A stretch of DNA of 64,000 nt. It comes from Lachnospiraceae bacterium. GTDB taxonomy: Bacteria; Bacillota; Clostridia; Lachnospirales; Lachnospiraceae. The position numbers and the translations under genes were made by a program. Position 1 is the first letter of the stretch, and each line of letters opens with the position of its first letter. The notes beneath the pieces are model-generated. The model was not told where the DNA came from and ran no database searches. It saw nothing but the letters and a program-made list of their open reading frames with translations. Shown here in pieces: positions 5,650 through 33,836 of the stretch. The stretch lies in contig JAQUXP010000007.1 of NCBI GenBank assembly GCA_028692395.1, forward strand, positions 57,389 to 121,388, in the 5' to 3' direction.

Positions 5650-6773
5650 TGAAGGAAGAAAAAGCAAAAAAGGCGGTAAAACATTTTTTCCCCAGGGATC
5701 TTATCCAGTCGGTAGAGCCATATGGCAGCGGTCATATCAACAGTACCTTTCTTCTGAAGGAAATGGATGAAAGTGGGGAAAGAAGATATATTCTTCAGAA
5801 AATCAATACAGACATCTTTCGGAATCCGGAAGGATTGATGGAGAATATTCGAAATGTGACAGAATATCTCCGAAAGGCCATCATAGAAAATGGCGGAGAT
5901 CAGGAGCGTGAAACACTGAATATTGTACTGACAACAGAGGGAAAACCTTTTTACAGAGATGAGGAGGGCGAGTGCTGGCGGGTGTATAAGTTTATCGAGG
6001 ACGCCATCAGCTATGATCTGGTAGAAAAACCGGAGGATTTTTATGAGAGTGCTGTGGCATTTGGTAACTTTCAAAGACTTCTGGCAGACTATCCGGCAGA
6101 AACTCTCTTTGAGACAATTCCGAAGTTCCATGACACCTGGTTTCGCTATCAGACCTTTGAACAATCCGTGCAGAAGGATGTCTGCGGAAGAGCAGCAGAG
6201 GTTTCCGAGGAGATCGCCTTTGTGAGAAATCACATGGAACTGGCGAAAAAGCTTGGCCGGATGCAGGAGGCGGGAGAACTGCCCCTGAGAGTTACACATA
6301 ATGACACCAAGCTGAATAATATTATGATTGACGAAAAGACCCGAAGAGGAATCTGTGTCATAGATCTGGATACGGTAATGCCGGGACTGGCTGTCAATGA
6401 TTTTGGAGATTCGATTCGATTTGGTGCCAATACTGCCTATGAGGATGAGACGGATCTTACGAAGGTGAGCTGTAGTTTGGAGCTGTTTGAACTTTATACA
6501 AAGGGATTCCTTGAGGGTCTGAATGGAAGCTTGACCAAAAAGGAGATCGACATGCTTCCAACAGGTGCCATGGCTATGACTTTTGAGTGCGGGATGAGAT
6601 TCCTTACAGATTATCTGGATGGAGATACCTACTTTAACATCCACCGCCCAGGCCATAATCTTGACAGATGCAGATGCCAGTTTGCACTGCTTGCAGATAT
6701 GGAAAGAAAAGAGAGTCAGCTGGACGCAGTCATTCAAAAGTATAGCAAGATATGCCAGATATCAGTGTGCTGA
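5646..6773 (+). CDS. N-acetylhexosamine 1-kinase-like phosphotransferase
   Basis: Probably phosphorylates the anomeric hydroxyl of an imported N-acetylhexosamine. The 375-aa protein matches my recollection of bifidobacterial NahK along its length: SVEPYGSGHINSTF near the N-terminus, ILQKINTDIFRNP, WRVYKFIEDAISYDLV, the catalytic-loop motif RVTHNDTKLNNIMID (Asp near 219) and the metal motif VIDLDTVMPG (near 240), then DFGDSIRFGAN and FECGMRFLTDYLDGD. It overlaps the upstream permease by 4 nt and the downstream anSME by 22 nt, so all three are one transcription unit. GlcNAc, GalNAc or a related sugar is inferred from homology. Confidence 0.85.
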   Translation: MMKEEKAKKAVKHFFPRDLIQSVEPYGSGHINSTFLLKEMDESGERRYILQKINTDIFRNPEGLMENIRNVTEYLRKAIIENGGDQERETLNIVLTTEGKPFYRDEEGECWRVYKFIEDAISYDLVEKPEDFYESAVAFGNFQRLLADYPAETLFETIPKFHDTWFRYQTFEQSVQKDVCGRAAEVSEEIAFVRNHMELAKKLGRMQEAGELPLRVTHNDTKLNNIMIDEKTRRGICVIDLDTVMPGLAVNDFGDSIRFGANTAYEDETDLTKVSCSLELFELYTKGFLEGLNGSLTKKEIDMLPTGAMAMTFECGMRFLTDYLDGDTYFNIHRPGHNLDRCRCQFALLADMERKESQLDAVIQKYSKICQISVC

Positions 6774-7879
6774 TAAAGCCCGCATCGGGAATGTGCAATA
6801 TGGCCTGCGAGTATTGCTTCTATGCGGATGAGATAAAAAAAAGAGAACAGGATTCCTATGGCTTTATGTCAGAGGAATCCTTAAAAAATGTAATTCGCAG
6901 GACCCTTCTGAAGTCCAGAAGCGGAATCAGTTATGCCTTTCAGGGAGGAGAACCAACACTGAGAGGACTTGCCTTCTTCGAAAAGGCACTTTATTATGAA
7001 AAGAAATATAATCGAAACCAGGTTCCGGTGTATAATTCTCTTCAGACGAACGGGTATCTGATCGATGAAAACTGGTGTCAGTTTTTAAAGGAGAATCATT
7101 TTCTGGTGGGACTTTCTGTGGACGGCACGAAGGAGCTGCATGATACATACCGCCATGACAAGGAAGGAAAACCAACCTTTGAAAGAGCAGAACATGCCGC
7201 CGATCTTATGAGCCGATATGGCGTGGAGTATAATATTCTTACGGTGGTACACGATAAAGTTGCTGCCTCCATTAAGGAGATTTACAGTTTTTATAAAAGA
7301 AAAGGCTGGAATTATCAACAGTATATTGCCTGCCTGGAGCCGTTGCAGGAGGGACATGCAAAGACGGGGTATGGAATTAGGCCGGAGGAATACGGAAACT
7401 TCTTAATCGAATTATTTGACCTGTGGTACAGGGACTGGAAAAAGGGAAGACAGCCATATATCCGGCAGTTTGAGAACTATATTGCCATGCTTTTGGGCTG
7501 CCAGCCGGAGTCCTGTGAACAGCGGGGTGTCTGCGGAATTCAAAATGTTGTAGAAGCAGATGGCAGTGTATATCCCTGTGATTTTTATGTCCTGGACGAA
7601 CTGAGACTTGGCAATCTAAATGAGATGACACTGCAGGAAATCTACGAAAACAGGAGAAAAAGTGATTTTTTGAAGCGCTCCGGCAAGCTTTCGGATAGCT
7701 GCATCAGCTGTGAATATTACTTCCTCTGCAGAGGCGGATGCCTGAGACACAGAGATTACCGGGAAGCGGGAGAGTATTATGAAAACTATTTTTGCCAGAG
7801 CTATCGGATGTTTTTTGAAAAGTGTCTGAGCAGGATGCAGGAGATTGCCGTCACTGAAAATAAAAATAGAGGCTTATAA
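6752..7879 (+). CDS. Anaerobic sulfatase-maturating enzyme (anSME), radical SAM/SPASM
   Basis: Converts the active-site Cys or Ser of a sulfatase to formylglycine without oxygen. It is 375 aa, close to the clostridial enzyme's length (about 370). The radical SAM motif CNMACEYC (Cys 15, 19, 22) comes directly after IKPASGM, followed by FQGGEPTLRG and LQTNGYLID. A C-terminal SPASM region (CGIQNVVEADGSVYPCDFY, CISCEYYFLCRGGC) would hold two auxiliary clusters. It overlaps the kinase by 22 nt. Its natural client is probably the sulfatase at the window start, although further sulfatases may exist outside the window. Confidence 0.92.
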   Translation: MPDISVLIKPASGMCNMACEYCFYADEIKKREQDSYGFMSEESLKNVIRRTLLKSRSGISYAFQGGEPTLRGLAFFEKALYYEKKYNRNQVPVYNSLQTNGYLIDENWCQFLKENHFLVGLSVDGTKELHDTYRHDKEGKPTFERAEHAADLMSRYGVEYNILTVVHDKVAASIKEIYSFYKRKGWNYQQYIACLEPLQEGHAKTGYGIRPEEYGNFLIELFDLWYRDWKKGRQPYIRQFENYIAMLLGCQPESCEQRGVCGIQNVVEADGSVYPCDFYVLDELRLGNLNEMTLQEIYENRRKSDFLKRSGKLSDSCISCEYYFLCRGGCLRHRDYREAGEYYENYFCQSYRMFFEKCLSRMQEIAVTENKNRGL

Positions 7880-9097: not shown

Positions 9098-10240
9098 GTG
9101 TCAGAGATTACATTAAGAAATATCTGTAAAATGTATGATAAAGACCATTATGCAGTAAAGGATTTTAATTTGGAAATCCATGATAGAGAATTTGTTATAT
9201 TCGTAGGACCTTCAGGCTGCGGAAAATCAACAACACTTCGAATGATTGCGGGTCTTGAGGATATCAGTGATGGGGAGCTGTGGATTGACGGACAGCTATG
9301 CAACTATTTTGAACCGAAGGACAGAGGGCTGTCCATGGTATTCCAGAATTACGCACTGTATCCCAATATGACGGTATATGGCAATCTTGCATTTGCGTTA
9401 AAGGTACGTCATCTGCCAAAGGATGAGATTGACCGGACAGTAAAGCAGGTAGCTAAGACACTGGAGATTGAGAAGCTTTTAGAGCGTCATCCCAATGCTC
9501 TTTCGGGCGGACAGAAGCAGCGTGTGGCAATCGGAAGTGCGATTGTCAGAAGACCGAAGGCTTTTCTTATGGATGAGCCGCTGTCCAATCTGGATGCAAA
9601 GCTGAGAGCTCAGATGCGAATTGAGCTGGCAAAGATTCATAAGGAGACAGAGACAACCATCATCTATGTAACCCATGACCAGACAGAGGCGATGACTCTT
9701 GGGACTAAGATCGTTGTTATGAAGGACGGACTGGTGCAGCAGGTGGCCGCACCGGCAGAGGTTTACAACAACCCGGCAAACCTTTTTGTAGCAGGATTCA
9801 TCGGATCACCGTCTATGAACTTCTTCAAGGCTCTTGTTACGGAAGAAGACGGAAAGGCAGCACTGCTTTTGGGAAATGCCGCATCAGGCAGGAAGGTATT
9901 TCTGGAGGGTAAAAGAGCACAGAGGCTTCTGAAAGAGGAAAAAGACAGAGAAGTAACGCTTGGGATAAGACCGGAAGATATCTATGAATATCAGGAGGCT
10001 GTAGACGGAGGCTTTGAGAAGAATACAGTTGGGCTGGAGGAAGTCGTTGATACTAGAGAAATGCTGGGTGCAGAGGTTATTCTCTACTTTGAATCACAGG
10101 GCAAAACCCAGTCTGTGCGTCTGAAACCGGAGAATCAGTCCAAACCAGGCGAAACGATTAAGCTTTATATGAATCCGGAGAAGATCCAGATCTTTGATGC
10201 CGAAACAGAAGAAAATATTTTTTACGAGAGGGAGATCTAA
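9098..10240 (+). CDS. ugpC: ABC transporter ATP-binding protein, UgpC/MsmK/MalK type
   Basis: Powers a CUT1 importer. It is 380 aa with Walker [10 protein letters not shown] (residues 37-45), Q-loop [11 protein letters not shown], signature LSGGQKQR, Walker [14 protein letters not shown]-loop YVTHDQTEA and a C-terminal TOBE-like regulatory domain ([12 protein letters not shown]). After the signature it reads VAIGSAIVR where most relatives have VALGRAIVR. It starts with GTG behind GGGAGGAG. It heads the glycerophosphodiester operon and is the only ATPase of this kind in the window, so it may also serve the five importers here that lack one. Confidence 0.93.
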
Positions 10241-24966: not shown

Positions 24967-26259
24967 TTATGGAAGAATCACTACAAACTCCGCTCCGCCA
25001 ATGGACGCCTCCTCCACCCGGATACTCCCTTTGTGGAGCAGCAGGATCTCCTGGGCGATGCACAGACCCAGACCAAAGTGGGAACGGTCGGAACGGGAGC
25101 TGTCCCCCCGGTAAAAGCGGCCAAATATCAGTGCTCTTTGTTCCACGGGGATTCCGGGACCACTGTCCGCCACACGCAGCTGAAAGCCACTATCACCGGT
25201 ATATAACAGGCGCAGGATAATCTGTCCGCCCTCCGGTGTATAGCGCAGGGCATTATCCAGCAGGATAGAGAGAACCTGAGTGATGCGCACACTATCGCAG
25301 AGACAGTTGGGAAGCTCTGATTCCGGGAGCTCCACAGAGAGATGAATCTGATGTCTGGCAGATAAAATCTCGTATTTTTCATAGGTATCTAAAAGCAAAG
25401 TATCCAGCTGTGTGGGTACTTTTTTAATCTTCCAGGTGTGAGCATCCGAGTTGGCCAGGGTCAGCATCTCATTTACCAGGGCTGCCATACGATCTCCCTC
25501 CGAGTGTATCGCTTCCAGAAAGCGGTGGGTATCCTGGCTGGAGGCCGGAACACGTTCCAGCGCAGAAGCACTGGAGAGAATCACACTTAAGGGGGAGCGA
25601 AGCTCGTGGGAGGCAGAGGCGATAAACTGAGCCTGCTGTCTTCGGTTTTCTTCCAGAGGGCGCAGGAGATGTCGGGTGAAAATCCAGCAAAAGAGAGCAA
25701 TTACCAGAATCGACCCAAGATCAAGCAGGGCAAAGGTCAGTCGCTGCTGCATAATATGAGCATGCTCACCAAAGCGGGAATAGAGCACCAGGGCGTGCAA
25801 AACACCCTGTTCCTTCTGCAGGGTCATGGCAGAGACATAATATCCGATCCGGTTCTCATCTTCCATGGAAAATTCCACATGGGAGGAGAGCCGGCTGCGG
25901 CTTCCGGTGTCCATGGAGTAACCATGCTCGGTTTGAGCAAGGGACAGGGCCTGGGCGAGAACAGCCTTTTGCGCCTGACTGTGAGCCAGTTCACTCATAT
26001 AGAACTCCTGACCATTATCATAGACGGAGATTAGAAAGGTGCCGTGCTGCTCCTGCTTTGCCAGCCATTCCTGGGTGACAACATCCTGATTTTCCAGATA
26101 GGACATAATCATATTCATGGAATTAAGAAAAGTAACGTAGTTCGTCTGCAGCAGTCCATGCTCTGACAGATATAAGGAAAGGACTGTCATAAGAACCACA
26201 ATCAGACCGGTAACTCCGGTAAAAAAAAGTGTCAGATGTACATGAAGTTTTTTAAACAT
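24967..26259 (-). CDS. Membrane sensor histidine kinase (HisKA type)
   Basis: Sensor of the two-component system next to the importer/adaptor operon. It is 430 aa: membrane helix near 8-30, extracytoplasmic sensor of about 130 residues, second helix near 170-190 (LLDLGSILVIALFCWIF), HisKA box IASASHELRSPLSVILSSASAL with the phospho-accepting His, then the ATPase domain with N box DNALRYTPEGGQI, G1 VADSGPGIP and G2 HFGLGLCIA. Its start overlaps the response-regulator stop by 8 nt. There is no clear HAMP domain. Confidence 0.9.
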   Translation of the reverse strand: MFKKLHVHLTLFFTGVTGLIVVLMTVLSLYLSEHGLLQTNYVTFLNSMNMIMSYLENQDVVTQEWLAKQEQHGTFLISVYDNGQEFYMSELAHSQAQKAVLAQALSLAQTEHGYSMDTGSRSRLSSHVEFSMEDENRIGYYVSAMTLQKEQGVLHALVLYSRFGEHAHIMQQRLTFALLDLGSILVIALFCWIFTRHLLRPLEENRRQQAQFIASASHELRSPLSVILSSASALERVPASSQDTHRFLEAIHSEGDRMAALVNEMLTLANSDAHTWKIKKVPTQLDTLLLDTYEKYEILSARHQIHLSVELPESELPNCLCDSVRITQVLSILLDNALRYTPEGGQIILRLLYTGDSGFQLRVADSGPGIPVEQRALIFGRFYRGDSSRSDRSHFGLGLCIAQEILLLHKGSIRVEEASIGGAEFVVILP

Positions 26260-26932
26260 GCTCCTCCTCCAGACAGTAGCCGATTCCTCTGAGGGTCTTT
26301 AAGGTGACACAGCTGTGTAAAGAAGAAAGTCTGCGGCGGATAAAATGAATATAATTATCCAGATTTCCATCCTCCACGGCAGCATCCGGGCCCCAGACCC
26401 GGGACAGAATCAGACTGCGGGGAAGTGTCTGACAGGTGTTGCGCAGCAGAAATTCCATAAGCGCACCTTCTCTTTTTGAGAGCAGCACGGACTTTTGAGA
26501 GCAGGTCATTTCTCTTGTGACAGCATTATAGGTTAAGTCACCAAAGCTTTGAAGCTGTGTATCATTCCACTGGATCGGACGCCGCACGATACAGCGAATC
26601 CGGGCAACCAGCTCCTCATATTCAAAGGGCTTTACAATATAATCATCTGCACCGGCATCCAGTCCGGTAATACGGTCTGAAAGCTCCCCAAGAGCCGTGA
26701 CCATCAAAATAGGGGTGGAGATACCGGCTCTTCGGGATTTCTGCAAGAGCGTCATTCCATCTATCTCCGGCAGCATACGATCCAGAAGGATCACATCACT
26801 GGACTGCTGCTGTATCATATACCACCCGTCTGTCCCATCGTGGCAGTCATCTACGGTGTATCCGTCCTGTTCCAATTGATAACGGAGGGAGTCACACAGC
26901 CGCAGATCATCTTCTATAATCAATATTCGCAT
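26252..26932 (-). CDS. OmpR/PhoB-family response regulator
   Basis: DNA-binding partner of the kinase. It is 226 aa: receiver domain with acidic pocket IIEDD and phospho-acceptor Asp51 (VILLDRMLPEIDG), conserved Thr in PILMVTA and Lys in IVKPFEYEELVAR; winged-helix effector from about 130 (LTYNAVTREMTCSQKSVLLSKREGALMEFLL, VWGPDAAVEDGNLDNYIHFIRRRL). AAAGAGG lies before the ATG. It is divergent from the binding-protein gene at 27106, and the repeats in between are its likely targets. Confidence 0.93.
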   Translation of the reverse strand: MRILIIEDDLRLCDSLRYQLEQDGYTVDDCHDGTDGWYMIQQQSSDVILLDRMLPEIDGMTLLQKSRRAGISTPILMVTALGELSDRITGLDAGADDYIVKPFEYEELVARIRCIVRRPIQWNDTQLQSFGDLTYNAVTREMTCSQKSVLLSKREGALMEFLLRNTCQTLPRSLILSRVWGPDAAVEDGNLDNYIHFIRRRLSSLHSCVTLKTLRGIGYCLEEEHV

Positions 26933-26989
26933 GATAATATCCTCTTTCTGATTGTTTCCTATCTGATCATACCACAGTTTTCTTTAAGT

Positions 26990-26999
26990 TTTCTCTAAA
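26990..26999 (-). promoter_or_regulatory. Inverted half of the response-regulator box
   Basis: TTTCTCTAAA is the exact inverse of TTTAGAGAAA found in the two tandem boxes downstream. It lies about 58 nt upstream of the response-regulator start and suggests autoregulation. Confidence 0.4.
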
Positions 27000-27021: not shown

Positions 27022-27062
27022 TTTAGAGAAAAAATAGAGCTTTTTTTAGAGAAAAGATAGAG
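27022..27062 (+). promoter_or_regulatory. Tandem 18-bp direct repeats, predicted response-regulator boxes
   Basis: TTTAGAGAAAAAATAGAG (27022-27039) and TTTAGAGAAAAGATAGAG (27045-27062) differ at one base and start 23 nt apart, about two helical turns. They end 10 nt before an extended -10 (TGCTATCAT, 27070-27078), covering the -35 region, the classic layout for OmpR-type activation. Confidence 0.65.
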
Positions 27063-27069
27063 ATTGCCC

Positions 27070-27105: not shown

Positions 27106-29439
27106 ATGAGAACATATAAAAAGAAAAGTATCGGTATTCTGCTGGCAGGAATTCTTGCTGCACTGTCTGTGACAGGATGCGGAAGTCCAAAGGGAGGAAC
27201 GTCCCCGGACAGTGCTGCCAGAAGCGGTGAGAAGGTATCAAATACCAGTCAGGCTATGGGACGATATCTGGAGGAAGAGCTTCCTCTTCCCGAAGGCTTG
27301 GATGAGGTGCAGGATCTGATCCTTTTGGATGATGGGAGCTATGAAATTGCAGGCTGTAACAATAGTACGATGCAGTATCTGCGTTATAAGATGACAGATG
27401 GAGCATCCTGGACGGATGTGGGAGTTCCGGAGGCCATCAATTCCGGAGAATTGAATGCAAATGGAGAAAGCCTGACACTTTGTTTGGCCCCGGCGGGAGA
27501 CATTCTGGTAACGGCCAGCTCTTATGATGAGGAACAGGGGAGTCTGACAGAAACCTTTACTTATTTTGATCCACAGGGCCAGAAGCAGCTCCTGGATATA
27601 CAGGTTCCTCAGGACAAAAATCCGGGAAATAATGTTTACAAGGCAAGATTTACCCAAAGCGGGCAGCTTTTTGTACAGGATTATGGCAGGGTGAATTATG
27701 AGATTGACAAGGCAACCGGAGCGATTCTTAAAACCTACGATGCCGATGGTGCAGACATTCTTTTGAGTGCCCCTGCGGGTAACCGCTGGGTGATTGTGAC
27801 GGCGGATCAGGTGCTCTGCTATGACATATCGACCGGAGAAGAGCTGCCAAAGGACAGTGTACTGTCTCAGCAGATCATGGAAAGAAAGGAATCACTGGGT
27901 GATTCCAGCGGCTCTTCCGAAGGAATTCTCTTTGCGGGAGACCAGAAGGATGGACTGTTCTACTGCGACAGGCGTGGTATCTATTATCATGCAGCAGGGG
28001 GAAGTGTCTGTGAGCAGATGGTAGATGGACAGCTGGTCAGTCTTTCCAATCCCACCACGATGCTGCAAAAGCTGTTAAAGTCAGAGGATGATTCCTTTCT
28101 GGTGGAGGCAGTGGATGAAAATATGGTCTGCCGGCTGTTAAAATACACCTATTCTGCCGACACTCCTGCGGTTCCGGCTACGGAGCTGAAGGTATATTCA
28201 CTGGAGGATCATACCTTTTTGCGTCAGGCAATCAATCAGTTCCAGCATGTCAACCCGGATATCTATGTCAATCTGGAGATTGGTGTGACAGGCAAGGATG
28301 CGGTAACCAGAGAAGATGCACTTCGCACACTGAACACAGATATTCTGGCGGGAAATGGACCGGATGTACTGATTCTGGACGGCATGCCCCTGAACAGCTA
28401 TATAGAGAAAAATATGCTCCTTGACATCAGCGATATCCTGCAGAAAATCAGGGAGACGGATGGCGTGTTTGAAAATGTTGCAAATACGTTTCAAAAAGAC
28501 GAAAAGGTCTATGCAATACCTGCAAAATTCGCTGTTCCCATCATTGTGGGAGATGCAGATACGGCAGCATCCGGCAGTACGCTGAAAGCATTCGCTGATC
28601 GGGCAGAGGCCATGCGTGCAAAGGATGGGGAAAAGAATGTATATGAGCGTATTGATGAAAAGATTCTGCTGCAGGAGTTATTTGCTGCGGACTCGGCCGG
28701 ATGGCTGCAGGAGGACGGAAGTATCTCTGAGGTGGAGCTTCAGAATTACCTTACCCAGGCAAAGCGGATCTATGGTACAAACAGCCATGAAGGAGAAGAT
28801 GCCAGCAACAGTTATACCTATGATACATTTCAGGAGTATACCAGTGACAGCATTTCCAATTATATACTGGATACAGTACTGGGAGGAAGTCAGTGTGCCT
28901 TTGGATTGCTGAGCAGTATGCAAAGCTATGCTACAGTGACCTCTGCGACAGACAGCAAACCGGATGCCGGTTTTACCATGGGACTCTTCGGAGGAGAGGT
29001 CAACTCCCACAGCTTTGTGCCATCGGAGATTGTGGGAATCAGCAGTACCACCGGAGAGGAAAAAGCAGCTCGTTCCTTTATCCAGACGATGCTTAGCAGC
29101 GATACGGCAACCAGCGGCAGCTACACCTTTTCCACCAACAAAAAAGCATATGAAAATGCCAAGGTCCAGCCATGGGGCGATGATGAGGGTAATGTCGGGG
29201 GCTATTCTGTCAGCAGCCAGGATGGAACACAGCTGGAGTTTATGATCAGATGGCCCTCACAGGAACATATGGATCAGCTTACAAAGATGCTGGAAAGCCT
29301 GAATCGTCCCTGCATCAATGACGGAATTATCCTGGATATTGTACTGGAGCAGGGCGGGGCCTATCTAAAAGGAGAACAGTCTTTGGAGGATACCAGCAAG
29401 ACGATTCTTCAGAAGATGAATCTGTATCTGGCAGAATAG
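27106..29439 (+). CDS. Large binding lipoprotein: beta-rich N-terminal domain plus CUT1 binding fold
   Basis: The start is the ATG at 27106 after AAAGGAGAATCGT (the track start 27064 lies upstream of the promoter). It is 777 aa, against about 420-480 for ordinary CUT1 binding proteins. Lipoprotein signal ALSVTGCGS. Residues about 50-355 are beta-rich with recurring blade-like units (DGSYEIAG, GDILVTAS, GQLFVQDYG, NRWVIVTADQVLCYD, DGLFYCDRRGIYYH), suggesting a beta-propeller. From about 366 (LKVYSLEDHTFLRQAINQFQHVNPDIYVNLEIGV) a family-1 binding fold follows, with GNGPDVLILDGMPL. It heads an operon with two permeases, an adaptor and a MacB-like protein. The ligand is unknown. Confidence 0.82.
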   Translation: MRTYKKKSIGILLAGILAALSVTGCGSPKGGTSPDSAARSGEKVSNTSQAMGRYLEEELPLPEGLDEVQDLILLDDGSYEIAGCNNSTMQYLRYKMTDGASWTDVGVPEAINSGELNANGESLTLCLAPAGDILVTASSYDEEQGSLTETFTYFDPQGQKQLLDIQVPQDKNPGNNVYKARFTQSGQLFVQDYGRVNYEIDKATGAILKTYDADGADILLSAPAGNRWVIVTADQVLCYDISTGEELPKDSVLSQQIMERKESLGDSSGSSEGILFAGDQKDGLFYCDRRGIYYHAAGGSVCEQMVDGQLVSLSNPTTMLQKLLKSEDDSFLVEAVDENMVCRLLKYTYSADTPAVPATELKVYSLEDHTFLRQAINQFQHVNPDIYVNLEIGVTGKDAVTREDALRTLNTDILAGNGPDVLILDGMPLNSYIEKNMLLDISDILQKIRETDGVFENVANTFQKDEKVYAIPAKFAVPIIVGDADTAASGSTLKAFADRAEAMRAKDGEKNVYERIDEKILLQELFAADSAGWLQEDGSISEVELQNYLTQAKRIYGTNSHEGEDASNSYTYDTFQEYTSDSISNYILDTVLGGSQCAFGLLSSMQSYATVTSATDSKPDAGFTMGLFGGEVNSHSFVPSEIVGISSTTGEEKAARSFIQTMLSSDTATSGSYTFSTNKKAYENAKVQPWGDDEGNVGGYSVSSQDGTQLEFMIRWPSQEHMDQLTKMLESLNRPCINDGIILDIVLEQGGAYLKGEQSLEDTSKTILQKMNLYLAE

Positions 29440-29464
29440 AAAATCGTACGGCTGAAAGGATATT

Positions 29465-30331
29465 ATGAGAAAAAACAGAAAAAAGAACGGATATCAGGGA
29501 CTTTTGTTTCTGCTGCCGAGTCTGCTGGGGGTCGGTATCTTCGTACTGACCCCTTATCTGGATGTTGTGCGCCGCTCTTTTACTTCAGCGATTGGTCAAA
29601 ACTTCACAGGGTTGGAGAATTATCGGAAAATCTTTGAGAATACAGCATTCCAGCTGGCCTGTAGCAATACGCTGCGCTTTGTGGCGGTCTGCATTCCCCT
29701 GCTTTTACTGCTCTCCTTACTACTTGCACTTTTGCTGCAGCGGCTGGGGAAGAAGGGGCAGTGGTTCAAACAGTGTTTTCTTTTTCCTATGGCGATTCCG
29801 GTGGCATCCGTGGTGCTGTTGTGGAGGATACTTTTTGATCGCCATGGTATGGTAAATGCGCTGCTGAACGATGTGGGATTCGCAGGCAGAGACTGGATGA
29901 ATTCCTCCAGTGCATTTGGAGTGCTGGTTTTCAGTTATATCTGGAAAAATCTGGGCTATGATATTGTGCTGATGCTGGCAGGACTTTCTTCCATATCCAC
30001 AGATATTTATGAGGCGGCACGGGTGGATGGCGCCGGAGAATGGAGAATCTTTCACAGCATTACGCTGCCGAATCTTCTTCCGTCCCTCTACACCATCACG
30101 GTACTTTCCCTGCTGAATTCCTTCAAGGTATTCCGGGAGGCTTATCTGGTGGCCGGAAATTATCCGGATGACAGCATGTATCTGCTGCAGCATCTGTTCA
30201 ATAACTGGTTTCGGGAGCTTTCGATGGATAAGATGGCAGCGGGAGCAGTGGTGATGACGCTGGTGATCTTTCTGGTGGTTTTGATTCTCACCAAAACGTG
30301 GGGAAAGGAGGGGCATGGCGATGGAACATAA
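29465..30331 (+). CDS. Sugar ABC transporter permease (MalF/UgpA type)
   Basis: It is 288 aa with six predicted helices and coupling loop DIYEAARVDGAGEWRIFHSITLPNLL. GAAAGGA precedes the ATG. It overlaps the next permease by 17 nt. No ATPase is encoded in the operon. Confidence 0.9.
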   Translation: MRKNRKKNGYQGLLFLLPSLLGVGIFVLTPYLDVVRRSFTSAIGQNFTGLENYRKIFENTAFQLACSNTLRFVAVCIPLLLLLSLLLALLLQRLGKKGQWFKQCFLFPMAIPVASVVLLWRILFDRHGMVNALLNDVGFAGRDWMNSSSAFGVLVFSYIWKNLGYDIVLMLAGLSSISTDIYEAARVDGAGEWRIFHSITLPNLLPSLYTITVLSLLNSFKVFREAYLVAGNYPDDSMYLLQHLFNNWFRELSMDKMAAGAVVMTLVIFLVVLILTKTWGKEGHGDGT

Positions 30332-31172
30332 AAGAAAACACTGGATAGGACTTTTACTTTTGCTGCCCTTATGCTTTCTCGCCTGCTATCCGGTGTGGTT
30401 TTTATGCAGTGGTTCTTTGATGGGTTCTGTTCAGCTGAAAGATGCCCTCGCACCGGTACTTGGAAGCCGGGAGGGCTATGTTTCCTTTCCAGTGATGCCG
30501 CTGTATCCTACTTTGCGGCACTATGTGGCATTACTGCTGGACTCACCGGAGTTCTTTCAGATGTTCTGGAATTCTGTGAGGTTTGCGGGAGGCATCCTTC
30601 TTGGACAGCTGTGTGTAAGTGTTCCTGCGGCATGGGGATTCGCCCGCTTTGAATTCCTGGGAAAGCGGGCATTATTCCTGCTGTATCTGGTGCTGATGAT
30701 GATGCCCTTTCAGGTTACGATGCTGTCCGGGTATCTCGTGCTTGATACTTTGAAGCTTTTGGATACCCGGTGGGCGATTATTCTTCCCGGTGTGTTCTCG
30801 ACTTTCCCGGTATTTTTGATGTATCGTTTTTTTGAGGGGATTCCCGAAGCGCTAATTGAATCAGCAAAGCTGGATGGAGCAGGCAGCTGGCAGATCTTTC
30901 TCAGGGTAGGACTGCCTCTTGGGTCTTCCGGGATTCTTTCAGCTATGGTGCTGGGATTTCTGGAATATTGGAATCTGATAGAACAGCCACTTACCTATCT
31001 GAAGGATAAAACCTTATGGCCCCTGTCCTTGTATCTTCCGCAGATTGGACTGGAACAGGCCCCGGAAGCCTTCGTATCCTCTGTGGCGGCACTGATTCCG
31101 GCCTTTCTGGTGTTCCTGGCAGGAAGAGATTATCTGGAACAGGGGATCGTGGCGGCGGCGATCAAGGAGTAG
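30315..31172 (+). CDS. Sugar ABC transporter permease (MalG/UgpE type)
   Basis: It is 285 aa, starting at an ATG behind AAAGGAGGGGC inside the previous gene. Six predicted helices and coupling loop ALIESAKLDGAGSWQIFLRVGLPLG; the C-terminus EQGIVAAAIKE replaces the usual GAVKG. The adaptor gene starts 2 nt after its stop, so importer and adaptor appear to be one unit. Confidence 0.88.
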   Translation: MAMEHKRKHWIGLLLLLPLCFLACYPVWFLCSGSLMGSVQLKDALAPVLGSREGYVSFPVMPLYPTLRHYVALLLDSPEFFQMFWNSVRFAGGILLGQLCVSVPAAWGFARFEFLGKRALFLLYLVLMMMPFQVTMLSGYLVLDTLKLLDTRWAIILPGVFSTFPVFLMYRFFEGIPEALIESAKLDGAGSWQIFLRVGLPLGSSGILSAMVLGFLEYWNLIEQPLTYLKDKTLWPLSLYLPQIGLEQAPEAFVSSVAALIPAFLVFLAGRDYLEQGIVAAAIKE

Positions 31173-31174
31173 GT

Positions 31175-32830
31175 ATGGAAAAGGTGCACAGGGAGAAAGG
31201 TGTTGTTGGAAAGATGAGAATTGTGCTTAATAAGATGAAGACTTTTTTTGAAGGGATAAAACCGGCAGCTGGTTTTTTGGAGAAGAACCATCTGGCGGGA
31301 GCATTTGTACTGTTCCTTTGTATGATGCTGGGGTTTACAGTGATTTCCAGAGCTGCAGCAAGCTTTACGGTGCCCCAGGTGACGGTGGTGAAACCCGCAG
31401 CAAAGGTGATTGAGCACCGGGTTTCGGCTGACGGGAAGGTGGAGCAGAATCTGGAGCGGGCTGTATTTACCGAGAAAAATCAGATTGTGGAGCAGGTGTG
31501 TGTCCGTGAGGGGCAGCAGGTGGCAGCGCAGGATGTGCTTTTTACTCTGAATCTGGATCAGCTGAAAAAGTCTGTTGAGGATCTGAAAAAGGAGATTGAA
31601 AAGCTTCAGCTTGGCAGTCAGGATGCTCTCAGTGATGCGCAGGTGGCAGCCAGACAGAAGGAAAATGCCAGTGCGAGAGCCAGAGAGGATTATAACACGG
31701 CAGCCCAGTCTGGCGATCAGGCGGCAGCCTTTGCACTGGAGGAGCTGAATCGTGCGGAGGATTCCCTGAATCAGTTTTATAACAGGACTGCTTCTGCTGG
31801 GGAAGGGGAGGATGCCCTCCTGCAGCAGCTGAATCAGGAGTGCGAGAAAAAGGCAGAAGCGTTGAGTGATGCCCAGGCGGCCCTTTCCCAGCTTTCATCC
31901 GATGCCACGCAGGAAGAGCGGGATGCCTGTGAGGGACAGGTATCAGATGCTCAGGGGGACTTGTCCCAGGCCCAGGCGGCCAGGGAGGCTTACCAGCAGC
32001 AAAAGGATGCCCAGGCTCAGACGGATATGGACACCCAGGAGGCACAGCTAAAGGCAGATGTGGCGGCAAAGAAATATGCGTATGAAGAGGCGCTTCGCAC
32101 CAGGGAAAAGAGTCTTGTGGCAGCAAAACGTGCGATTCAGGATGCAGATGCAGCTTCGGCAAGCGACAGTACAGTGACCTCCAATCAACTGGATATTGAT
32201 ACGAAGCAGAAGGCTTTGGAGGAGCTGCAGAAGGTTTTGGATCAGGAAGGAAAGGTGACGGCAGGCACCGATGGTGTAGTGACAAAGCTGAATATAGAGA
32301 CAGGGGGACTGACAGCCGAGACGTCAGCAGTTACCCTGGCAGATCTCTCCTCGGGCACGACATTTACAGCTCAGATCACAAAAGAAGATGGAAAATATGT
32401 GAGTACCGGGTCGGAGGTAACCCTGAAGTCTTCCGTGGGAGGGCAGGAAGTGAAGGGACTGCAGGTGACCTCTGTTTTGCCGGATGAAAAGGAGGAGACG
32501 CTGCTGGACGTGACGGTGGCCCTTCCGCCTGGCAGTCTGTCCATCGGAACCACAGCATCTATGGTGGTTTCGCAGAAGTCCCAAAGCTATCCCGTCTGTA
32601 TTCCCATCCAGGCACTGCATCAGGATCATAATCAGTATTATGTGCTGATCCTGCAGGAGCAGGAGGGCGTGCTGGGAACAGCCTATATATCAAAGCGCAT
32701 GGAGGTGACTGTGCTGGAAAAGAATACGGAGTATGCAGCTTTGCAGGAGGGAAGTATTACCACAGCAAATGATGTGATTCAAAGTGCAGACCGGGAGGTT
32801 TCGGCAGGAGGGACGGTGCGTCTTGCTTAA
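31175..32830 (+). CDS. HlyD/MacA/YknX-like membrane-fusion adaptor
   Basis: Extracytoplasmic adaptor of the type that partners MacB-like ABC exporters. The ATG at 31175 is the credible start (the track ORF begins 159 nt earlier inside the permease), giving 551 aa. One N-terminal membrane helix (AFVLFLCMMLGFTVIS, about 40-60), a lipoyl-like half (ENQ-type AVFTEKNQIVEQVCVREGQQVAAQDVLFTLN), an alpha-helical coiled coil (about 125-360, rich in Ala/Gln/Glu), the second lipoyl half (GTDGVVTKLNIETGGLTAE), then beta-barrel and membrane-proximal domains. It is unusual within an importer operon. Confidence 0.85.
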   Translation: MEKVHREKGVVGKMRIVLNKMKTFFEGIKPAAGFLEKNHLAGAFVLFLCMMLGFTVISRAAASFTVPQVTVVKPAAKVIEHRVSADGKVEQNLERAVFTEKNQIVEQVCVREGQQVAAQDVLFTLNLDQLKKSVEDLKKEIEKLQLGSQDALSDAQVAARQKENASARAREDYNTAAQSGDQAAAFALEELNRAEDSLNQFYNRTASAGEGEDALLQQLNQECEKKAEALSDAQAALSQLSSDATQEERDACEGQVSDAQGDLSQAQAAREAYQQQKDAQAQTDMDTQEAQLKADVAAKKYAYEEALRTREKSLVAAKRAIQDADAASASDSTVTSNQLDIDTKQKALEELQKVLDQEGKVTAGTDGVVTKLNIETGGLTAETSAVTLADLSSGTTFTAQITKEDGKYVSTGSEVTLKSSVGGQEVKGLQVTSVLPDEKEETLLDVTVALPPGSLSIGTTASMVVSQKSQSYPVCIPIQALHQDHNQYYVLILQEQEGVLGTAYISKRMEVTVLEKNTEYAALQEGSITTANDVIQSADREVSAGGTVRLA

Positions 32831-33836
32831 AGACAGAAGAAATGATGTTTTTCGAATTCTATGTATACTGGTGTGTCTGTTCCTGTTTCAGCTTATGGCT
32901 CTGAACATGTGGAAAATGCCGGAAGAGAACAGAAGAGTCTCTGCCCAAAAGGATCAGGGATATTGGACCCAGGCGGAGATTCTGGCACTTTGGCAGGCAG
33001 AGCAGGGGCAGGAGACTCCCAGTGCATTTACCGTATGGGGGCAGCAAGATGCCACAGAGATCCAAAGCGTGGATCTGGAAAGGACGGTACGTGGGGATGT
33101 GCTGGAGCTTATGGGAGACAGCAGCCGGGTGGTCACGGATCCGGAAGTACTCATGGACGGAGATAAGAAGGGCTGTCTGATCGGAGAACAGCTTGCAAAA
33201 AAGCTGTTTGGAAGCCGGGAGGTGACGGGTCTGGAAGTAAACTGTGAAGAGCGGATACTGAAGATTCAGGGCGTGCTGAAGGAATATCCGGATATCCTGG
33301 TGGTACAGTGGGATGGAACGGGGGACTCCTGTCTTTGCCGGGTGAATCTTCTGAATCCGGCAGAGGAAGAGCTTGCAGGATTTCTGATGCGAAACAATAT
33401 TGACGCAACCCGGATCGAGGATTTTTTTTTATATGACGGGATTCGAATCTGTGGTGAATTACTGCCTCTGTCCTGTTTTATCTGGATGCTTTTGAAGGTT
33501 TTGAAAAGATGGAGAAGCGGATGGAGGAATCCTCTGGTTCTGGTGCTTGTTTTGACCGGTGTGGCGGCAGCAACAGGGGTCTTCTTTTGGTGTTTTCCGC
33601 TTCGGCTGAGCCTGTTTCGTGACTTTATGCCTGCAAAGTGGTCCGAATTCTCCTACTATGGAACCTATCTGCAGAACAAGGGTGCGGCTTTTTGGAGACT
33701 TTGCAGTATGAAAAAGACGGCGGCAGATCAGCCACTTCTGATATTGGCAGGAAAGATGCTGCTCTTTGCGGTTTGTGGCGAAGTGAGTCTTTACGGGGCG
33801 GTGCATCATAACATAAAAAAATACAAGAAATCATAA
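32823..33836 (+). CDS. MacB-like membrane protein (periplasmic-core domain, 1+3 helices), no ATPase
   Basis: Not a family I can name with certainty. The best start is TTG at 32823 after GCAGGAGGGACGG, overlapping the adaptor end, giving 337 aa. One N-terminal helix (RILCILVCLFLFQLMAL), an extracellular domain of about 165 residues, then three helices (LLPLSCFIWMLLKVL, PLVLVLVLTGVAAATGVFFW, LLILAGKMLLFAVCGEVSLYG). The extracellular part contains CLIGEQLAKKLFGSREVTGLEVNCEERILKIQGVLKE, which resembles the MacB core pattern (G..LAKKLFG...G..V......F.V.GV). The 1+3 topology is also that of MacB/FtsX-type permeases. Last gene of the operon; no ATPase is nearby. Confidence 0.6.
   Translation: MLKDRRNDVFRILCILVCLFLFQLMALNMWKMPEENRRVSAQKDQGYWTQAEILALWQAEQGQETPSAFTVWGQQDATEIQSVDLERTVRGDVLELMGDSSRVVTDPEVLMDGDKKGCLIGEQLAKKLFGSREVTGLEVNCEERILKIQGVLKEYPDILVVQWDGTGDSCLCRVNLLNPAEEELAGFLMRNNIDATRIEDFFLYDGIRICGELLPLSCFIWMLLKVLKRWRSGWRNPLVLVLVLTGVAAATGVFFWCFPLRLSLFRDFMPAKWSEFSYYGTYLQNKGAAFWRLCSMKKTAADQPLLILAGKMLLFAVCGEVSLYGAVHHNIKKYKKS

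Follow-up and report, generated by a model that had tools for sequence, protein, structure and literature searches.

Type I (CUT1) importers and MacB/membrane fusion protein (MFP) systems are regarded as distinct ABC classes. The window analysed here, a 64,000-nt stretch of a Lachnospiraceae contig (JAQUXP010000007.1), carries parts of both in one five-gene unit that contains no ATPase gene, which raises the question of whether these parts form a single machine and, if so, how it is powered and what it serves. An earlier note on this DNA offered two readings: either the export-type adaptor and MacB-like protein serve as an outward extension of the importer through the cell envelope, or the whole is a sensor/transport complex of a new type.

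The five packed plus-strand genes lie where that note had placed them, with slightly shifted starts for the last two (Table 1). The solute-binding lipoprotein (SBP) gene is followed after 25 nt by permease A, which overlaps permease B by 17 nt; the adaptor follows after 2 nt and overlaps the MacB-like gene by 8 nt. The adaptor start was corrected to ATG 31175 (ribosome-binding site AAGGAG), while the MacB-like gene most likely starts at TTG 32823 (ribosome-binding site AGGAGG). The divergent OmpR-type regulator and kinase pair upstream of the operon was also confirmed; promoter and terminator scans gave scores no better than shuffles. Neighbours of the unit in this glycan-gene rich region include a GH31-like enzyme, a GH2-like enzyme and other CUT1 operons, with which a glycan role for the unit would be compatible. 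Elsewhere in the window, sulfated-glycan use near the unit is suggested by two genes (6752-7879 and 23-1120), one for a radical-SAM enzyme similar to those that mature sulfatases, the other sulfatase-like.

Table 1 Features of the five-gene unit and associated loci in the window.
Feature	Position	Strand	Description
Histidine kinase	24967-26259	-	2 TM helices, extracytoplasmic domain ~130 aa, HisKA + HATPase_c
OmpR/PhoB-type response regulator	26252-26932	-	Response_reg 96.8 bits, Trans_reg_C 52.8 bits
Half-site of candidate operator	26989-26998	opposite strand	
Candidate operator	27022-27065	+	Two 21-nt direct repeats TTTAGAGAAAA[AG]ATAGAG, 23 nt apart
Solute-binding lipoprotein (SBP)	27106-29439	+	Beta-rich N-terminal domain 51-354, then SBP domain 355-777
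CUT1-type permease A	29465-30331	+	EAA motif; signature NSFKVFREAYLxAGxYPxxSxYxLQHLFNNWF
CUT1-type permease B	30315-31172	+	EAA motif
HlyD/MacA-type adaptor (MFP)	31175-32830	+	N-terminal TM helix, lipoyl halves, long coiled coil
MacB/YknZ-like protein without ATPase	32823-33836	+	TM1, extracellular MacB_PCD-type domain, TM2-4
UgpC/MsmX-type ATPase of neighbouring CUT1 operon, outside the unit	9098-10240	+	448.8 bits vs cut-off 432

The first three genes encode parts of an importer. The SBP scores above the Pfam cut-off for SBP_bac_1 (35.4 bits; cut-off 26), as do permeases A and B for BPD_transp_1 (64.5 and 47.2 bits; cut-off 26.4). An EAA coupling motif is readable in both permeases (P0002 and P0003), and permease A resembles those of CUT1 importers (LpqY-SugABC-type, AlgM1M2 and MalFG). 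The lipobox cysteine of the SBP (Cys25) is nearly invariant across relatives. In the SBP model, a beta-rich domain (residues 51-354) lies ahead of the SBP fold; it matches engineered and WD40 propellers in a profile search, contains an Asp-box-like motif (SxDxGxxW) and, judging by its sequence, appears propeller-like.

For the other two proteins the window sequences fall below the family cut-offs: the adaptor scores 20.0 bits against HlyD_3 (cut-off 22.2) and 45.1 bits against RND_mfp (E 6e-12; cut-off 94.9), and the MacB-like protein 14.3 bits against MacB_PCD (Pfam cut-off 27). Both are identified by graded homology to relatives that do pass, the adaptor relatives exceeding the HlyD_D23 and HlyD_3 cut-offs and the MacB-like relatives reaching 42-68 bits against MacB_PCD. 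The adaptor has the features of HlyD/RND membrane fusion proteins (N-terminal anchor, lipoyl halves around the coiled coil, HlyD core). After its TM anchor, a conserved SRAADS-like segment (A2; window about 31290-31370) is a candidate contact to membrane partners.

The 1+3-helix topology proposed for the MacB-like protein is borne out by an AlphaFold2 model (alignment of 47 sequences, pLDDT 92), with TM1 at residues 2-29, an extracellular alpha/beta domain, and TM2, TM3 and TM4 at 200-231, 236-256 and 299-327. Foldseek retrieved MacB, the YknZ extracellular domain, Spr0695 and LolC/E (E 2e-7 to 1e-4), the MacB_PCD-type domain between TM1 and TM2 gave a fold match at E 2.7e-6, and the family profile matches YknZ by sequence (E 1.7e-6); the protein is a member of the MacB/YknZ/LolCE fold. 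None of 105 family members carries the FtsX coupling motif and no FtsX domain hit was obtained. In MacB, the major ATPase-coupling helix sits between TM2 and TM3 (PMC5985334), which in the model are linked by only 4 residues; since the ATPase-coupling part is missing, this is not a MacB awaiting an ATPase. A P..[WFH]S[DNE] (PxxWSD-type) motif in the extracellular TM3-TM4 loop, present in 81/89 type I MacB-like proteins (locus types are given below) and 0/16 of type II (MPAKWSEFSYY in the window, 33595-33660), is a possible docking site for permease or adaptor.

Relatives of the MacB-like protein were found in 25 of 200 Lachnospiraceae genomes, and nearly all loci read have the SBP, both permeases and the adaptor adjoining, most with a divergent two-component system. 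Several architectures were distinguished. Type I, as in the window, consists of the two-component system diverging from SBP-A-B-adaptor-MacB-like, with a rearranged form SBP-(small lipoprotein)-adaptor-MacB-like-A-B-ATPase. Type II comprises A-B-adaptor-MacB-like with one to three large SBPs, or, in a version from another class, A-B-adaptor-MacB-like-ATPase-SBP, and type III has SBP, adaptor and permeases without a MacB-like gene. Membership is constant across architectures while gene order varies. The cassette permeases (n=51) form a single clade separate from ordinary CUT1 permeases (support 100/99), within which those of type I have their own clade (support 100/99). Two or three different large SBPs per permease pair are found in three type II loci (L175, L187 and L188), and the extra small lipoprotein of rearranged units, between SBP and adaptor, carries an SxCSDTGCxI-like motif (L042:2484-2999; L046:12487-13122; L212:5839-6306). 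Permeases A and B share one 541-aa frame (L209:9356-10981, +) in a type III-like locus from a different family.

The permease A motif was used as sole selector of loci, so that the component under test did not choose them; the SBP alignment was too divergent as a search query, and the permease C-terminal motif worked instead. Among 80 loci selected in this way from named records (including Hungatella hathewayi, C. symbiosum, Eisenbergiella tayi, Ruminococcus flavefaciens, Clostridium celatum and Paraclostridium ghonii), the adaptor is encoded in 76 and the MacB-like protein in 66, once as a fusion; contig ends account for part of the exceptions. Of the loci with at least 6 kb of flank on each side, all 62 of type I and 14 of the 15 of type II encode the adaptor. 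The MacB-like gene is truly missing in about seven lineages with enough flank and is therefore not indispensable. One Oscillospiraceae MAG from a termite gut has a single 724-aa frame covering MacB-like protein and permease A (L111:8036-10210, +), which is suggestive of a real fusion, or of an indel artefact between neighbouring genes on this single MAG contig.

The permease motif occurs in 119/397 Lachnospiraceae genomes (~30%; 66 of these at 105 bits or more, type I), in 47/391 Clostridia genomes and in 9/399 genomes drawn across the phylum. In the 391 Clostridia genomes, permease-motif and MacB-like-profile searches were run independently and their overlap counted from both lists: in at least 33 of the 47 permease-positive genomes the two hits share contig and strand and are ~4 kb apart or less. 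An adaptor-only query retrieved no relative from the genome collection. The five-gene set thus recurs in Lachnospiraceae, and its arrangement, kept in more than 100 loci, goes far beyond chance. In line with the earlier note, importer and exporter parts are joined in a unit that has its own two-component system; the unit is conserved, and it is very likely one functional unit.

The two-component system belongs to the unit: a cassette-family kinase adjoins 42 of the 62 type I loci that have 6 kb or more of flank. In 47 regulator-SBP intergenic regions upstream of the operon, TTTAGAGAAA-like sites number 54 against 3.0 expected, often as direct repeats with a spacing of 11 or 23 nt, and this enrichment supports control by the divergent regulator, which is predicted to switch the operon on via TTTAGAGA repeats. 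Such control would also suit a complex mainly for sensing, in which SBP, permeases and the MacB/adaptor assembly respond to envelope stress or an envelope ligand and pass the signal to the divergent kinase while transport is secondary, as in BceAB-BceRS, where an FtsX/MacB-superfamily protein likewise stands beside a two-component system. No partner other than the two-component system recurs with the cassette, operators are shared in the intergenic region, and the binding protein may not bind nutrients. However, BceS-type kinases lack an extracytoplasmic sensor domain, whereas the cassette kinase has its own, ~130 aa between TM1 and TM2 and conserved in relatives. The cassette further differs from BceAB-BceRS in its importer-type permeases, SBP and adaptor, and type II and III units, usually without the cassette-family kinase, retain the transporter parts. 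We therefore keep the sensor complex as a rival, but an unlikely one, to the outward extension of an importer.

An extended importer needs an energy source, and the earlier note had all ATP hydrolysis borrowed. The window unit indeed contains no ATPase gene, which is nothing unusual for CUT1 importers dependent on a shared MsmX, and 17 related loci encode such an ATPase in the unit. The MsmX/UgpC-type ATPase of CUT1 importers is often encoded elsewhere (PMC5730181), and MsmX common to several importers is established (PMC5730181, PMC9601137). The genome, with 97 permease-domain matches, contains an orphan UgpC/MsmX ATPase (496.7 bits; cut-off 432), whose 4.1-kb surroundings encode no permease, and the ATPase of the neighbouring CUT1 operon in the window (Table 1) is a possible alternative donor. 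In the 17 relatives' loci, the ATPase gene lies on the same strand adjoining the MacB-like or a permease gene and is always of the MsmX/UgpC importer type, the four tested all being at or above the UgpC cut-off. No MacB-type ATPase belonging to the unit was found in any locus read; candidates near L109 and L158 were rejected as unit parts and belong to separate upstream MacAB-like sets. For the cassette family, this also rejects the idea that adaptor and MacB-like genes elsewhere always come with their own ATPase. The puzzle of the missing ATPase is largely solved by the orphan MsmX and the in-unit MsmX-type genes of relatives, and the unit is probably MsmX-driven.

The same findings bear on the possibility of an exporter, with adaptor and MacB-like protein as exit path, permeases and MsmX expelling a compound, and the SBP as extracellular acceptor or plug. 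Adaptors and MacB-type proteins otherwise function in efflux or secretion (PMC5985334, PMC5768738), and the window genome's two other adaptor genes sit in canonical MacAB sets, each complete with its ATPase. Against this, permease A resembles CUT1 importers, the ATPase is importer-type and a MacB-type ATPase is absent from the unit, which makes export quite improbable; with CUT1-type permease partners, the cassette is not a self-sufficient MacAB/YknWXYZ efflux pump.

The closest solved relative of the SBP is CbpC of C. thermocellum 'transporter C' (profile E 1.5e-35; fold TM 0.71 on CbpC), which is also the sole solved relative of type III SBPs. CbpC reportedly showed no sugar binding by ITC or NMR, its pocket is blocked by an extra loop (Yan et al. 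2022, PMC9601137) and the mutant grows normally (PMC9601137); an earlier study (Nataf 2009), as cited in later papers, gave CbpC a sub-micromolar affinity for glucose and cellodextrins. No catabolic neighbour recurs beside type I units (3 alpha-amylases among 130 flanking genes), and catabolic context was dropped as a substrate clue. The lack of a recurrent catabolic enzyme and the 2022 findings on CbpC together make a nutrient-sugar role doubtful, and the ligand is probably non-catabolic. An ordinary sugar importer, with adaptor and MacB-like genes as passengers co-regulated for envelope reasons, is very improbable, since although SBP, CUT1 permeases and MsmX are all standard parts and the window region is rich in glycan genes, the adaptor is kept in all 62 type I loci and in three architectures of differing gene order, the permeases form a separate clade and no catabolic neighbours recur.

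The best explanation, and a reasonably probable one, is a single envelope complex in which a CUT1-type core is driven by MsmX and extended outside the cell by the MFP and the MacB-like protein. Of the two readings in the earlier note, the outward extension is thus preferred, by analogy with YknZ, the extracellular domain of which binds the adaptor YknX (PMC4887032). Complex formation is well supported by inference; its span across the wall, direction, ligand and stoichiometry are putative. Permeases A and B would form the channel. Their driving ATPase, of MsmX/UgpC type, would be the orphan MsmX acting in trans or, in some relatives, one encoded within the unit, and the lipoprotein SBP would catch or present the ligand. 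On the outer face, the MacB-like protein, which lacks a nucleotide-binding domain, would dock the adaptor with its extracellular domain as YknZ docks YknX. The adaptor is probably ring-shaped, like MacA/YknX, and the two together would lengthen the importer across the cell wall, serving as conduit or scaffold. Inward transport is slightly the likelier direction, and the likely job would be to take up or retrieve a non-nutrient ligand that is bulky or derived from the envelope. It is conceivable, if tentative, that this is a new ABC architecture, in which an MsmX-driven type I importer core works with an ATPase-less MacB-like protein and MFP ring to pass conformational work or substrate across the Gram-positive wall, the SBP perhaps having given up its classical ligand pocket for a structural or sensing role.

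The nearest known systems share some parts with the cassette. CUT1 importers with a shared MsmX (MalEFG-K, B. subtilis AraNPQ-MsmX) also have an SBP_bac_1 lipoprotein and two EAA-motif BPD_transp_1 permeases; the cassette adds the adaptor, the MacB-like subunit and the propeller-type N-terminal domain of the SBP, and differs in its separate permease clade, dedicated OmpR-type two-component system and lack of catabolic genes. YknWXYZ, MacAB and Spr0693-0695 pumps share the adaptor and a MacB_PCD-type permease with 1+3 TM helices. In the cassette, by contrast, the MacB-like protein lacks both the FtsX coupling motif and a dedicated ATPase, and it goes together with an importer core and an SBP. 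'Transporter C' (CbpC, Cthe_2125-2128 / clo1313_2783-2786) has an SBP domain homologous over its full length and two permeases in a four-gene unit. Three of its genes are the SBP and permeases (PMC8303734), and acrA is listed in a figure legend among five C. thermocellum clusters (PMC9601137); by elimination, the fourth gene would be the acrA-type adaptor, matching type III loci and making 'transporter C' a type III member. Its SBP, unlike that of the window unit, lacks the propeller domain and, if the fourth gene is the adaptor, there is no MacB-like gene. 'Transporter C' has been described only as a putative sugar transporter, and no description of a composite importer with adaptor and MacB-like protein was found in the open-access literature. 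The cassette suggests why CbpC of C. thermocellum resisted assignment as a sugar-binding protein and, by joining import and MacB/MFP parts in a conserved set that occurs in ~30% of sampled Lachnospiraceae genomes and also in other Bacillota, points to an envelope machine of common gut bacteria that has gone unrecognised.
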